A program made the position numbers and the translations under genes. Positions 22,671 through 29,452 of a stretch of 64,000 bases of DNA are shown one piece after another; position 1 is the stretch's first letter, and the number at the start of each line of letters is the position of its first letter. This DNA is from Gamsiella multidivaricata (lineage: Eukaryota > Mortierellomycota > Mortierellomycetes > Mortierellales > Mortierellaceae). The notes under the pieces were generated by a model. The model had not been told where the DNA came from, did no database searches, and was given only the letters and a program-made list of their open reading frames with translations. The DNA lies in assembly GCF_025024155.1 (NCBI RefSeq), contig NW_026251802.1:62001-126000 (forward strand), read 5' to 3'.

Positions 22671-23430
22671 TCCATTGGGTAGCTGGATATCCATGAAATA
22701 AAGCGGTCGTCTTTAAACGAAATGTTTACGCCGCCTGTCATCTCCATGAGTAACCTAGACTGAGTCCACAATCAGATCAGGCTCAGGACCAGCAACCATC
22801 GACATTCTCTTCGCGCCATATTCGAGCAAGTGTCAGAAGGTTTCGCTGTACTATGGTCGCTGGAGACAGCTCTCTTCCTCTATCCATTTTTCCTTGCCGT
22901 CTGCTTTTATATTTGTTCTTCTGTCGAGGTCAGTAGTTACAGCTTTAATTTCATTCTCCACAGTGGCTAGTTCTACATTAGTCGTCGATGGGACGCGTTT
23001 ACATAAGGGCGGCTAGAAAAACACTATCGCTTTATGCCCTGCCTGGCACGTAGACGCGAGGGATGGTTTGGTCCCGTCTGCCTTAAGGTATTTTTTTACC
23101 GTTGGTGCTGATATGCTTACTGACGCAACTGCGCCTTGAGATGAGGCAAAGAGTACTAACGCATATTCCCTTTGCTTATACGATGTATGGTAACACTCAT
23201 GAACATGTTTTCTCTACACAACTTTAACGGCGGTTTGAAAAGGATAAAGATTGCTGTGCTACGAAAGGAACTGGTCAACAAAGCAATGCGTTTTTTGTAT
23301 ATATGCCTTTCTATCAGAGATATCAGCGGATTGATTGAGGTTGGTGTCACTATGGCTACAGTATCTGTCTACCAGAATCAAGTAAAAAATGACTGGCTAG
23401 AATTCCGAATGGGTTGGGTGTTCATGCACG
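22671..23430. other. 3' flank of the XPG-Fanzor pseudogene
   Basis: No gene is supported. In TnpB and Fanzor loci the guide (omega) RNA usually overlaps or follows the 3' end of the nuclease gene, which here means the region just left of 23431. I see no clear terminal inverted repeat or recognisable guide scaffold by eye, so this is only a search region. Confidence 0.35.
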
Positions 23431-26400
23431 CTATTTTTTGTATGTTGAACTTACAAATTTTGAATGAGGGTTCCGACCCCCTATGATTATGTTGATGGGC
23501 ATGAACTTGGCAGGCCGACACTGGTTCTGGGTTTGCGACAGACACACGGTGGCAATGTTCTCAGAGCCGACAATATCGCGATCAAAGTACATTTGACAGC
23601 TTCAGCAGCACTTTGACCGCCTCTTGTCGGACTCCAAGAACGCCATACACTGGTCACGAGGGCACCGAGCACTGGTGTAGTACTCGTGCACCCCGACCAC
23701 AGTGTGTCCCATAGCCTTTGCCTATCAGCAGCGTCAAGGAACAAACAAAAAGATGAGAAAAAGTTGCAGTGCGGATGAGAGATGGTATGCCACCCTTTTT
23801 TTTTTCTTTTTTTTTTTTTTCCTTCCTACCTTGTCGACAAATTTCTTCTCGAGTGCGCTATGCTTGCTTGGCAGGCCAGTTTGCGAATCAAAAGAGCCTA
23901 ATTCTACTGCAAACACCACTTTTACACCATCCTGCGAGCTCAGTGGCTGACCAACAAAGTCCTTGCTGACGGCGAGGTCAAGCAAGGCCGCAACTGCGTA
24001 GTCATACGTTGCCTGTTGAGCCTTTTGAAGATCCCAGCGCTTCCTTAGCATCCACTGACAGTTGTAAGAGTTAAAAAGGCAGACTCTCGTGGTGAGCGCG
24101 GCAGTGCCGTCCGTACCAGGCGCCTCCAGATACGCCAGATATTCCTCGATCTTCTCCACAGTAAATGAGGGCAGTCTTGCCTCAAGAACATCAATGCGTG
24201 CCGCGGCCTTCTGCTTTTCTAGGAAACGCTTGAAGAGCATGTAAGGCCTGTAGAGGAATGCCCTGCGGATTCGTAAAGACTCTCTTTTCGTAGGTAAGGC
24301 GGGATTGATTCTTGTCGCTGTCATTGCGTAAACCTCACCCGGGTCAATGCCGATGACCACAGTACCGCCTGGTGGACAAGTGCCAGGAGAGTTGAAGCGC
24401 ACCTCCGCGTTTTCTAGGATCTTTGAACTTCGCTTCCAGTTGATGGTGTTGCGTGTGACATTGATCGTATCTGCGCCTGACGTTGGAACAGATGAGGCTT
24501 CTGAGCTGGATGAGGACGAAACAGCCGCAGTAGGGTCTACGGGTGGCAGTTGGTGTATCGACAGCCTCTGCCGCTTTGAACTTTCTGGCGTCGAAGACGG
24601 GAGCGTGATGCGTTTCTTCTTGGCGGGTCCTGCTGCAGCTGCGACCGGATCTGTACTGTACCAGATTCGTCCCCTCCACTTTCAAGAAACGCGTCGTCGA
24701 GGTCATAGTCACCGTCAACATCGTGGAACAGGGTCACATCCTCGTCGTTGTCGTCATCATCGTCGTCGTCGTCGTGTTCTTCTTCATCGTCGTCATCGCC
24801 CCTAATGCTTTGGCGGGGTGCTCGGCGTCGCGTTGTCGTTGTGTCATGCGCAAGAAGATGCAACACCAGTCCGTTCGTGCAGATGATGCCCCGAAGCTTG
24901 AACCTTGTGTGGTGCTGTCTGTCACTCTGAAGCGAAACCTTCCTGTAATACCCGTCAAAGCGCATCGCCGGGTGCAGTCTGTATAGCAGCTTCTCAATGA
25001 GGATCCCTCTCTTGCCGACGACCTTGGCTTCCGCAGTGTGGGCTGCTGTATCGCTCAGCAATCGGGCTATAATCGGCCGTGTCGTATTGCTTGTATAGAA
25101 TAAATGGACAAGGTCCGCCTTTGACAAGGACACGAAGCCAGCTGCAAACTTTGCCTTGACAAAGTCTGCAAACATGCGCTTCTCGGTATTCTTTTCGAAG
25201 AAGTAGTCGATCGGATTGACAGCTTCGGGGCGCTCTTCGTTCTCGGAAAACTATTAAAGAAATCTGAAGAGCTAATGGTCAACACTAGTGCTCCGAAAAG
25301 CAAGGAACACAACGGATACATCTTGCACACTCTTTAATATACCTTTGCGCCATAGTAATGGACTCGCACTGCATTGTAGACTACCGCAACAGCAAGCCTC
25401 GAGACCATCGAAGGGAACATCTCTGGTTCTCGTTGGCGAAAGGGGACAAAGCCGGTGAGCGTCGTGTACGCATCAAAGCCACGTCGGGCATGGGTGGCTG
25501 TTGGTTGTGGTTGTGCCTGTGCCTGTACTTGCGGCTGCGGGACGTCAGGGACCAACGGCGTATTTCGAGTGCTCATTCTGCGCGCGGGGGCAACCGATAT
25601 TCAAACAGCCTGGGAAACTCGTCCTTCTTGACTACTGCACAAGAGTGTGTTGAGTGCAAAGTAGAAGGCCTTGCTGTCGAGAATGTCTGCAATATCCTCC
25701 TTCCGCTGTGTCACATCTGTTGCTGTGTCTTTGGAACGAACAAGCCGCGCAATATCCAGTGCAATGGCCTCGTACATATGCATCTGGATCGCATTAAGGA
25801 TCGCAACCGTTGAACGTAGCCTGTCTGAAAGGAGCTTGCTTTCTGCAACCGAGATCTGATCCATTCGCTTTATGTTGGCCTGGATACTCCCCACAGTGAG
25901 TACCTTGGTTATATGCAGCTTGCGGAGGCGGCGGTCCACTGCAGTTGCAGAAGTGGGCCATGGGTTCGATGGGTCGGCGGAGCCCACCCCTTTCCGTTTC
26001 CTCTGCAATGCCCCCTTCTTCCTCTTTTTCTTGTTCTTCTTCTTCACGACCGCCTTCCGAGTCTTGACGGGGGGCTTTGCTTTTGGCTGTGGGCGGTCGT
26101 GAGGTACGGCAGTCGAGAAGTCAATCGATTGTCGTGGTAGGATCGATTTCTTGTCTGAAAAGATCGGCCGGAACTGGTTACGCTTTGAGTTCCTTGCAAC
26201 GTAAAAGGGAACCGCACTAGTAAGTACACGCATGCATCGCTATGCAAAAGGTGTTAGAGAATTTGATGTCTGTACAACGCGTGCGTGAATGAAGTGGTGT
26301 CGCACTTAAATTACCTTCTACTCGCATGCTGATATGCAGCGACGGCAAATCGCTGCAGCTTGAGGTGCCGGAACTGCGGTGCTGCAATGTTGAAACCAAA

Positions 26401-27354
26401 GCCGAGCATGTCCTCATCGGCGGCCTCATCTCCTGGCTGCAGTTGGAGCACTTTCTCCTCGAGATCCAAAAAGATGTCTTCCGATGGCTTGAATCGGATC
26501 TGGTCGATAACTTCGTGGGTTTTGATGGCTGCCATGAATCTGTAAGCATCGAGCATATGGCGGATATCGGGCGACTGGGGTAGAGCGCGGATGATCTCCA
26601 GGTTGCGAACTGTTCCAAGGCCGGGAATGTTCTCGGTATAGTCGTTCTTGGACACGATGCCCAGCAACGTCACATAGTCTGCGCTGGGAACGTGAAGTGC
26701 ATTGGTAACACTCTCCTTGGTGTACAATGCATAGGCCAGGCCGTGGAATATCGGCCGCAAAACCTTGGTGACCGACGGATATATCAACAGATCAGAATCT
26801 GCTGACACCACGAAGCTACCGGCTGCCATGGTCAGTGTGCGTGCAAAGCAGGTGTCGGCCTCGGTCCTGCAAGCGCAGACAGAAAACCCCTTTTCTCGTA
26901 AGGCATCCCGGAGTGTCTGCTTGGCTGCTGCATCAAATCTGTATACATCGCGGAGGCCCTTCTTGATCCTCGCTACCACGCTCTTCGAGGTCCATTGGCC
27001 GTTCGACGACTTCGTGCTCATGACTTTCAAGTTCGTCTGCAACTTCTTGAGGTCCGTTGTCAGTCTGTTCTTTCGCCTGATGTGCTCGTTCCGCTTCTGT
27101 TGGGATGGGGCGCCATCGATGTGAATCGTACATTGCGCAGGGGTAAAGTCCTTCGCCAAACGCGCTGCCATCGCGAGACCGACAGTTCGGACTTTGCTTG
27201 GGTCATAATCATCCGTGATCTGGCGGACGAGGGATCCATAAAACGCGCCGAAGAGGTCAACCTCAACAGCTTGGTTCTGGTAATCTTGAGGATCTGCGGC
27301 AACTGGATCCAAACCGTGCTTCTTCAGAGCACTGTAAAGGCCTCTTATGCCCAT
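23431..27354 (-). pseudogene. XPG/FEN1-like nuclease fused to Fanzor (eukaryotic TnpB-like) nuclease, decayed copy
   Basis: Exons read 26315-27354, 25343-26216, 23830-25250 and 23431-23721 on the minus strand. Residues 1-346 are a canonical XPG/FEN1 domain: MGIRGLYSALKKHG, VEVDLFGAFY, IHIDGAPSQQKRNEHIRRK, TEADTCFA, SADSDLLIY, DYTENIPGLG. A lysine-rich linker and a conserved middle region follow, then an acidic stretch. The Fanzor/TnpB RuvC core comes last: GIDPG (24337-24351), the Glu of VFAVELGSF (23902-23904), the zinc-finger region EYYTSARCPRDQC and the final DRD (23575-23583) before VGSENIA. Three lesions break it: TGA at 25601-25603, tandem CTGTA at 24651-24660 shifting the frame by 5 bp, and TGA at 23602-23604 inside the zinc finger before the last RuvC Asp. 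The remaining exon lengths keep phase across all introns, which argues for one gene. Family context: Fanzors are RNA-guided nucleases carried by eukaryotic transposons. The XPG fusion is my reading; an alternative is two closely spaced genes. Confidence 0.85.
24651..24660. repeat. 5-bp tandem duplication CTGTA-CTGTA inside the Fanzor exon
   Basis: The pentamer occurs twice head to tail. Exon 3 of the pseudogene is 1421 bp, which breaks phase. Counting the pentamer once gives 1416 bp, which fits both flanking splice phases and links the two open frames on either side. This makes it the most economical explanation of the frameshift. Confidence 0.8.
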
Positions 27355-28704
27355 GCTGTGGTCACTATGGTGGGTTGGAAGCTTAGCAGTGTTAGTGAAA
27401 CCCTCTCGTAAGGACGCTGAGGATATGGAAGGATAGGCTTGGAGGGTACATTACCTTTTCTACAGGCGTATAGTATCTAGCGTGAAGGTGTATATGGATA
27501 GCGAACTGCGGGCAAAGGGCGATGAGGAGAAAGGATGATGAACGAAAGGTAGAAAAAGATAGGAAAAGGTGCTATTGATGGTGTCGCTTGCGCTGAAAGA
27601 GTGAAAAGGTGAAAGAAAAGTGTGACGAAGAAAGCTGTGAAGTGTGTGGCAGAATACTTATAGGCGAGAAGCAATGTCTGCTTTCCCACAATAAAAAAAA
27701 CTTTCCGCAATAACAAAGACTTTCCACAATAAAAAAAAGCATTATCACCATAACAAAGACTTTCCACAATAAAGAAAGGCATTACCACAATAACAAAAGG
27801 CTTTGATAAAGAGCCATCACACTGATAGATGCTAGTCGCTTGACACGAAGCACGATCAGCGATATACGAGTAGCTTTGCCACGGCCTGACACAGATGTCC
27901 ACCCACATCGCCATCATCGCTGTTTCCAACGTACGCAGGTAGGCGCAAATCTAGATAGGTCGCTAGGGATGCAATGGAGGATAGGGAAATCAGTCAAGTA
28001 ACACGGTCAACCTTCAAAGGACCAAAGCCTATGAGAACTTTTGCTATTAAATTACGGGGAAGAGCACCGCTCCCAGAATAGAAGAATAAACGGTCTGTTC
28101 CTGAACCAGAGTCTTCTTCACATATATGTCTTGTATGCATTCGTCCAGATTGTCCGGATAACACCGCATCATCGACAGGTACTGACTGCCATCGTCAGCA
28201 ACCCACGCAACGAGATACAACCAACAGAGAATGCCAAGCTTGATCATTCGCCACCTTTGCACTATTAAATGCAATGTTTCCCCGATCTCCGATCGTCTCA
28301 TTATTGAGTATCCGTCATCGGCTTACCCTCGTGAAACGGTATTATAAAGGTACAATGGAGGCCTGATCAGCGAACATTACCGTACAACGACTCCAGAGGG
28401 GTGGACTTTATTGCCACGACTTCTCACTTCATCGGACATCATATATGTGAATATCTTGCAACTACCCCCAGTCATTCTCAATGGAACATAGTTCTAGCTC
28501 GAACCATTTAGCCAAACAACTCCCTATATTTATTTCCTTCTATCTCTGTCTAGTCTGTTTTACCTTTGTGTCAACACATTCCGATCTAAAGGAGGACCCT
28601 GCACCGCGAACCAGTAAATGACCGAAGCACACCCTTGCCGAAGTCCTATTCGCGTGGTAACTCCTTGTTGTAAATAGAACTAATGGTAGAAGTTATAGAA
28701 CCCG
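27355..28704. other. Upstream region of the XPG-Fanzor gene
   Basis: No gene is supported. The region includes a block of imperfect tandem repeats (listed separately) about 320 bp upstream of the start codon, which may be part of the mobile element's end or promoter. The rest shows no conserved motifs. Confidence 0.4.
27680..27805. repeat. Imperfect tandem repeats built on CTTTCCACAATAA
   Basis: The motif CTTTCC(C/G/A)CAATAA recurs four times at about 27680, 27701, 27729 and 27768. In the two longer copies it is followed by AAAAGCATTA / AAAGGCATTA, giving a period of about 40 bp, and then by a degraded fifth unit. The block lies upstream of the XPG-Fanzor gene. Subterminal repeats like this are common in fungal transposons, but here the element ends are not defined. 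Confidence 0.7.
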
Positions 28705-29452
28705 TTAGTAGCCCCCTACACCGCAGGTGCGCAGAGAAGTTTTCTCTTGTGCGATAGATCGGCCAGCCATAGACTTTTGTTGCTCATAGAGATCAACAAC
28801 AGCCTTCACATATGCATCAATGGTTTCAGGTGAAGGGAGGTCGCCCTCATAATCCGCCGTCGCATTAATACATATTGGCCTGATGCTGTGGTAGTCGTCC
28901 TCATGTTGAACTATTTCATCAGCTACCAGCTCCCGTACGTAGGTTAGGAACTTTCCATACGTAACTTTCATGTCGTCATTATATCTCTTACGTCTACACC
29001 AAGCCTAGAGAGGACAAAGATATGAAGATATGAATAACGGCGCCGAAAGACTTTGCGGATCAAATTATTATGTACTGTTGAATCAAGCAACGGGCCATCC
29101 AATGTGCCTGGTATCGTTGGTAACGTTTTCTCGTCGATACAGCAAGAATATCTTGCCGATCCACCACAGACAGTAGTTCGTCTTCTCTTTCAGCCAATGC
29201 GTTTGCAAGAGCATAGTCTCGTTCCCGCTGTTGGTGCGCAACGACATCTGTTGCAGTCGTCATGGACTGGTTATGAGCAGTCTGTTTAGCTGCCCGCCCT
29301 ATCAGGTGTTCCGGAGCCTTTCTCTTTTGTAGAGCTGAAGATGTTTCAGGAAGTAATTGCCGTTGTCCTATTTCGGCAGCTGGATGACAGGGAGGGGGTG
29401 AGATTGCATGTAGGGGAATTGCGATAAAAGACAGTGTACAAGGGCGCTGCAA
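28705..29452 (-). pseudogene. Truncated Crypton-like tyrosine recombinase (core-binding region only)
   Basis: Two open segments on the minus strand, 29060-29452 and 28705-28971 plus the codons just before it, fit the N-terminal and SAM-like core-binding part of Crypton-type tyrosine recombinases. They include STRKRYQRYQAHWMARCLIQ, then AWCRRKRYNDDMKVTYGKFL, TYVRELVADEIVQ and ETIDAYVKAVVDLYEQQKSM. This TxxxYxxxxxxWxxWC ... YVxAIVDLYxQQ pattern is typical of fungal Crypton and GCR1-related proteins. No catalytic domain (the Arg-His-Arg-Tyr set) follows; the frame stops at 28705. The piece is therefore a 5' fragment unable to recombine DNA. Identification rests on pattern memory, so an unrelated DNA-binding family is possible. 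Confidence 0.55.

Follow-up and report, generated by a model that had tools for sequence, protein, structure and literature searches.

We report that the window, a 64,000-nucleotide stretch of Gamsiella multidivaricata DNA (contig NW_026251802.1, positions 62,001 to 126,000 of the forward strand), carries a gene that joins a complete XPG/FEN1-type nuclease to a Fanzor, a eukaryotic TnpB-like nuclease. Almost certainly, to judge from its sequence and that of its relatives, this gene specifies a single protein of about 1170 residues, spliced by model, in which a basic linker connects the XPG/FEN1-type domain to a complete Fanzor. An initial annotation of the window had proposed such a fusion at 23431..27354. 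The proposal is supported by database gene models holding both domains in one frame, by identical intron phases in two subfamilies and by the reading frames of two further genomic copies (C166 and C1d). The gene does lie inside the interval, but the feature as a whole extends beyond it, since the gene sits in a mobile element of about 6.2 kb of which the window holds one decayed copy.

Alignment of twelve element copies (C25, C27 and C50 were left out) yielded a gene model of four exons on the minus strand, from 27354 to 23485 of the window. Exon 1 (26315..27354, 346 codons plus 2 bases, phase 2) encodes the complete XPG/FEN1/EXO1-type nuclease domain and is separated from the Fanzor exons by intron 1 (26217..26314, GTAATT..TACTAG, phase 2), which the initial annotation had already placed correctly. 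Exon 2 (25343..26216) holds the basic linker (about 26015-26086), after which the Fanzor part begins (at about 25903, VLTVGSIQAN). Besides intron 1, the model contains two others, both in phase 0: intron 2 (25251..25342, GTATAT..TAATAG) and intron 3 (23722..23829, GTAGGA..TGATAG). Between them, exon 3 (23830..25250) encodes the Fanzor core and includes an acidic stretch at 24735-24797, and exon 4 (23485..23721) carries the alternative RuvC2 glutamate, the zinc finger and RuvC3. The splice sites are well kept among the twelve copies: intron 1 shows the donor GTAAT in 12/12 and the acceptor AG in 10/12, intron 2 the donor GT in 11/12 and the acceptor in 12/12, and intron 3 the donor GT in 10/12 and the acceptor in 12/12. 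The exon frames of copy C93d do not join cleanly at intron 1, whose position there could not be fixed. The window copy is indeed decayed, as had been claimed, with one in-frame stop in each of exons 2 and 4 and a frame change inside exon 3.

More intact versions, whose existence had been predicted, were found both in the same genome and in other species. In copy C166, joining the exons gives a reading frame of 1174 residues with just one internal stop; the other copies read show multiple stops or changes of frame. When 5.8 billion proteins were queried with the C166 translation, the matches were P0001 (EC968_006552) from Mortierella alpina (1186 residues, 40% identical across 100% of the query, E=2e-248) and three further proteins of M. 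alpina or M. antarctica. An alignment search added P0005 (BGZ68_007048), 69% identical to P0001 along its whole length, and three shorter proteins. Both domains lie in one frame in the gene models P0001, P0002, P0003 and P0005. Among 11 database proteins, P0001, P0002 and P0005 display every motif sought in both domains, and P0006 and P0008 are without the XPG core. A second subfamily of the G. multidivaricata genome (C1d), about 26-34% identical, has introns in phases 2, 0 and 0 as in the window's subfamily. Its joined exons stay open almost to the C-terminus; the stretch examined lacked the first ~60 XPG residues. The C1d search returned P0009-P0011 of Mortierella sp. GBAus27b, with XPG and RuvC1 in one model. 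Related predicted fusions are therefore present in other subfamilies of the same genome, in M. alpina and in Mortierella sp. GBAus27b.

These relatives also bear on the possibility that XPG and Fanzor are two adjacent genes on one element and that the joined gene models are artefacts. Intron 1 of the window does contain an ATG (near 26233) in frame with exon 2, as does copy C139 in similar form, and the XPG frame of the window has a stop of its own at 26311. However, the residues at the junction (VPFYVA..SKRNQFRPIF) are conserved across species, intron 1 has an equal phase in the two subfamilies, whole-length models exist in the databases, and C1d has no ATG in frame just upstream of exon 2, which makes a two-gene arrangement very improbable.

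At the sequence level, both halves of the protein are constrained and travel together. Comparison of XPG and RuvC pairwise identities among 8 proteins gave a correlation of r=0.89 (Mantel test, 4/5000 permutations). The ratio of nonsynonymous to synonymous substitution rates (dN/dS), derived from nine copy pairs that are non-independent and include decay after insertion, ranged from 0.26 to 0.64 for exon 1, from 0.38 to 0.77 for exon 2 and from 0.31 to 0.72 for exons 3-4. Its bootstrap upper limit was below 1 in 8/9 pairs for exon 1, 5/9 for exon 2 and 7/9 for exons 3-4. Window-scale synonymous counts showed a modest excess over the frame expectation, the pairwise dN/dS being the better test.

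To the same effect, the two domains recur side by side throughout the genome, which was searched as 180 contigs totalling 37.5 Mb and for which all counts are lower bounds. At least 95 matches to the XPG exon, at least 57 to the exon-3 frame and at least 121 to PF07282, the TnpB/Cas12f zinc domain, were obtained. Clustering of 101 XPG matches (95 from the XPG-exon search and 6/60 from a second search) defined 87 loci, and at 57 of these a PF07282 locus follows on the same strand at a distance of up to 7 kb, the gap being 2.2-4.2 kb in 52 of these 57. Within 8 kb, the order was reversed 4 times and the strands were opposite 8 times. Conversely, XPG lies upstream at 56 of 120 PF07282 loci. Although the window copy is broken, a chance juxtaposition in one decayed copy is refuted by this order at 57/87 XPG loci and by its presence in other fungi, and we assign it a negligible probability. 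Nine loci exceeded the Pfam XPG_I cut-off: five weak ones, all among the 57, and four strong ones that we infer to be host repair genes.

The FEN1-type domain with acidic motifs described in the initial annotation was confirmed from 27354 to 26315, where exon 1 of the window displays MGIRGLY, HIDGAPS, CRTEADTC, VVSADSDLLIY and KNDYTEN. A profile of the XPG-exon family searched against PDB matched human XPG (E=1.3e-10), RAD2 (3e-10), archaeal FEN1 (4.5e-10) and EXO1 (2.9e-7). Fold searches recovered the XPG fold over the entire nuclease domain, and the top BFVD matches of this part were mostly viral and FEN1-like. The catalytic carboxylate motifs could be aligned to those of XPG/RAD2 and are present in the window, P0001, P0002 and P0005. 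Two of these positions are designated here E158 and E160, which we take to be the FEN1 residue numbers. The E160 equivalent is an aspartate in the sequences seen; in P0001 and P0005 the E158/E160 pair was identified by eye, the motif search pattern having missed it. The window exon alone remained under the Pfam cut-offs (XPG_I_2 E=0.018, XPG_N E=0.093), as did each of the 9 database proteins that were scanned (lowest E for XPG_I_2, 0.0017 in P0005), and the NCBIfam fen_arch match (E=0.0081) was under its own cut-off. Five divergent fusion-type loci exceeded the XPG_I cut-off, with 25.5-26.6 bits vs 24.9.

In the profile check suggested for both halves, PF07282 matched window 23554-23721 (= C175:85554-85721) above the Pfam cut-off (E=1.7e-7), and the window's XPG_N and XPG_I matches fell below theirs. 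PF07282 was also above cut-off in 5/9 database proteins scanned. The WED/REC/RuvC fold of Fanzors was found, SpuFz ranking first in Foldseek, and the SpuFz-like fold starts at residue 74 of the relative P0006, a position corresponding to exon 2. Other matches were weaker: SpuFz with profile A4 against PDB (E=0.093), NCBIfam guided_TnpB (E 1.8e-5 to 7.7e-5, under its cut-off) and PHROG transposases. The Fanzor assignment rests on PF07282, the motifs and the fold.

The initial annotation had named a RuvC/TnpB core with GIDPG, a zinc finger and DRD, and all three were located on the minus strand. According to PMC10711439, Fanzor hallmarks include a DPG motif at RuvC1 and, in RuvC2, a glutamate located six residues ahead of the zinc finger. 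The corresponding pattern given in PMC3627910 is D-X(125,275)-[TS][TS]xx[C4]-X(5,50)-RD. Motifs were surveyed in 13 models (C166, C1d and P0001-P0011). RuvC1 reads GIDPGEV in the window (exon 3, 24331-24351), and DPG is found in 9/13 models (C166, C1d, P0001, P0002, P0005, P0006 and P0009-P0011). It is replaced by EPG in P0003, DSG in P0007 and GPG in P0008, and the region is missing in P0004. In exon 4, HEYYTSARCPRDQC (23647-23688) comprises the alternative RuvC2 glutamate (E_alt) and the zinc finger. E_alt lies within HEYYTSARC in the window and HEY(Y/F)TSA(K/R)C in the family, with TS ahead of the zinc finger, and is present in 9/13 models, the remaining four (P0007 and P0009-P0011) ending before exon 4. 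The spacing from the RuvC1 aspartate to E_alt, 173-200 residues in the 7 models having both, fits the Fanzor pattern, as does the RD at RuvC3 of the window (DRDIVGSENI, 23554-23583).

One assignment of the initial annotation had to be revised. It had named the glutamate of VELGSF (exon 3, 23890-23907), at the canonical RuvC2 position, as part of the core. Among the 11 other models showing this site, the residue is G in 8, C in one, K in one and E only in C1d. Since G, C or K occupies it in 10/11, it is not the conserved catalytic glutamate; the conserved RuvC2 residue is the Fanzor-specific alternative one in HEYYTSARC. Variation also affects the other motifs. The first zinc-finger cysteine is R in C1d, and the first cysteine pair is CxxxxC in the window's subfamily and CxxC in C24d. 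Another subfamily of the same genome has DLG, DIG or DAG at RuvC1 (C93d, C109, C137 and C107) and HRD at RuvC3 where seen (C93d, C107 and C109).

Like the Fanzor1 proteins SpuFz1, GtFz1 and PpFz1, the fusion has DPG at RuvC1, E_alt six residues before the zinc finger, RD at RuvC3, the WED/REC/RuvC fold and a location in a fungal mobile element. Unlike them, it begins with a whole XPG/FEN1 nuclease and a basic linker and reaches ~1170 residues, compared with the 400-700 given for Fanzor in PMC10432273. It differs from XPG/FEN1/EXO1 nucleases in being fused to an RNA-guided nuclease, in the aspartate at E160 and, for the window and the 9 database proteins, in scoring under the Pfam cut-offs. The fusion is, in short, a Fanzor core with a new nuclease partner. 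That a fungal Fanzor1 can carry an additional domain has a precedent in PpFz1, whose FRI domain PMC11423790 links to cyclophilin binding and does not describe as a nuclease. We found no description of an XPG-Fanzor protein in the literature searched, where no paper mentions both Fanzor and XPG; most subscription journals lie outside that search, and an earlier Fanzor survey may hold one. Neither "fused" nor "fusion" occurs in the main text of PMC10432273 or PMC11423790, and "XPG" is absent from that of PMC11423790. The biological roles of Fanzors remain unknown, as stated in PMC10432273. If its XPG domain acts, the protein would be an RNA-guided cutter found in nature that carries a second, structure-specific nuclease of its own. 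It would then bear on the purpose of Fanzors and on the processing of type V-like R-loops, and editors designed to direct breaks towards recombination would have a natural model in it. With whole-length relatives in the databases, the fusion can be tested directly, with no need to mend any sequence.

XPG/FEN1/EXO1 enzymes take free 5′ ends beside duplex DNA, as a 5′ flap or a 5′ overhang. The best overall explanation, which we favour without considering it secure, is a fused protein combining an RNA-guided Fanzor cut with 5′-end processing by XPG in cis. Taken by itself, the in-cis 5′-end-processing role appears plausible at somewhat less than an even chance. A little more tentative is the arrangement of two active sites in one chain, in which RuvC would cut the guide-matched site and XPG would cut or resect the guide-distal flank of the R-loop, leaving a break ready for recombination through which the element is spread or preserved. 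First, the Fanzor part would bind an element-derived guide RNA, RNA guidance being expected from Fanzor membership, and open an R-loop at a matching target. Secondly, the RuvC site (the D of DPG, the alternative E and the D of RD) would cut the target, and at the guide-distal flank the severed non-target strand would provide a 5′ flap or 5′ overhang. Thirdly, because this strand would have a free 5′ end beside duplex, the tethered XPG domain, a reader of single-strand/double-strand junctions, would meet its substrate in cis and trim or resect it. The resected break would be hard to re-ligate, favouring homologous repair that copies the element and therefore its retention or homing.

Published data provide the background to this scheme. 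SpuFz1 cuts the non-target strand closer to the target-adjacent motif than the target strand, and 5′ overhangs result (PMC10432273). XPG cut the 3′ flank of an R-loop and left its 5′ flank mostly intact (Tian and Alt 2000, recounted in PMC7286691), and in type V enzymes the side distal to the protospacer-adjacent motif is the 3′ R-loop flank (PMC7286691).

The fusion could also exist with an XPG domain that mainly binds branched DNA, R-loop junctions or guide RNA and positions the Fanzor, its catalysis being secondary or lost. The glutamine that replaces one carboxylate in C1d, P0009 and P0010, and the aspartate found as second residue of the carboxylate pair in the sequences seen, would be consistent with such a role. 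We nevertheless consider it unlikely, given that P0001, P0002, P0005 and the window retain the remaining carboxylate motifs as well as the DY/hairpin region and that the dN/dS of exon 1 is below 1.

Several observations weigh against a fused protein with two cooperating activities. The gene models in the databases are predicted ones, and three of them (P0009-P0011) end short of exon 4. No XPG was found upstream at 64/120 PF07282 loci. Four such loci were examined: in three, the 4.8-5.2 kb preceding the zinc domain gave no match to XPG, and the upstream sequence of the fourth is cut by a contig end. Fanzors without a detectable XPG, as far as sequence matching reaches, also exist in this genome. 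C131, which shares 98% identity in exon 3 with the XPG-bearing C93, shows neither XPG nor anything resembling C93 over the 1.6 kb expected to hold XPG. Given these loci without detectable XPG and the comparison of C131 with C93, Fanzor may spread without XPG. Furthermore, since Q replaces the E158 equivalent in subfamily C1d, P0009 and P0010 (FQADT / YQADT), XPG catalysis may not be universal in the fusion family. Finally, the last 144 bases of the element, considered as guide RNA, fold no better than shuffles (z=-0.28, one fold).

The element shows the signs of mobility, with shared ends and mostly different flanks. Its right end (23357..23374, minus strand) reads ...TGGTAGACAGATACTGTA, and the flank beyond differs between most copies. 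The right-end sequence GGTAGACAGATACTGTA has 10 exact copies in the genome compared with 0 for a backwards control. On the other side, the upstream part of the element (27355..28727, minus strand) loses homology with most sister copies at 28727; further out, the window and copy C115b have a different sequence in common. Five copies with a common left boundary measure 6299, 6233, 6084, 6258 and 3742 bases, the last carrying internal deletions; some copies are shortened at their 5′ side, and the left flanks have a few extra letters in common. The right-end motif TACAGTATCTGTCTACCA, which occurs once in the window (<=3 mismatches), had no left-end counterpart in the merged copies (<=4 substitutions) that would indicate inverted-repeat ends. 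An empty-site search with the right flank of C171 matched C171 itself and C139 alone.

Upstream of the XPG exon, copies share a frame with an acidic stretch, of 369 (C166), 356 (C171) and 235 (C139) residues. The 356-residue frame of C171 had no Pfam match and no transposase was recognised, the fusion gene being the sole recognised gene of the element. XPG might accordingly serve transposition itself, for instance by flap processing at the element ends during excision or replication, a reading that would suit the lack of a recognised transposase, the precise right end with no matching left inverted repeat and the 5′-shortened copies. A transposase in trans is equally possible, however, Fanzor elements riding several transposon types according to PMC3627910, and Fanzor loci without detectable XPG exist. 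We judge this role of XPG improbable, slightly more so than a purely binding one.

The closest described element is MCi-2, a Fanzor1 element of Mucor circinelloides. According to PMC3627910, it is likewise fungal, with a conserved 3′ part of ~6 kb and variable 5′ parts, and like the present element it has no recognisable inverted repeats. XPG is not mentioned there, and the 11-12 base target duplications of MCi-2 were not reproduced in the present element.

Other features of these elements were noted. Past the right end, C139:148372-149143 and C171:129889-130660 are identical over 772 bases, and their left flanks differ. An exact right-end motif at C99:392661-392677, on a contig with no XPG or Fanzor match listed, is a possible relic or non-autonomous copy. 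The genome holds about 120 PF07282 loci in 37.5 Mb; PMC3627910 tabulates 1-13 Fanzor1 families per species, families and loci being different counts. Eight copies of another Fanzor subfamily (C93, C121, C12, C62, C140, C111, C33 and C131; DLG at RuvC1 in C93) have exon-3 proteins 98-100% identical, and this identity suggests a recent spread. At least C121, C111, C33 and C62 adjoin contig ends, where sequence further upstream is cut off. Within the upstream part of the window copy, a nested repeat of ~0.7 kb (28045..28726, minus strand) is absent from copy C170 and occurs in at least 29 other places of the genome at 77-84% identity, with 40 of 118 candidates scored.

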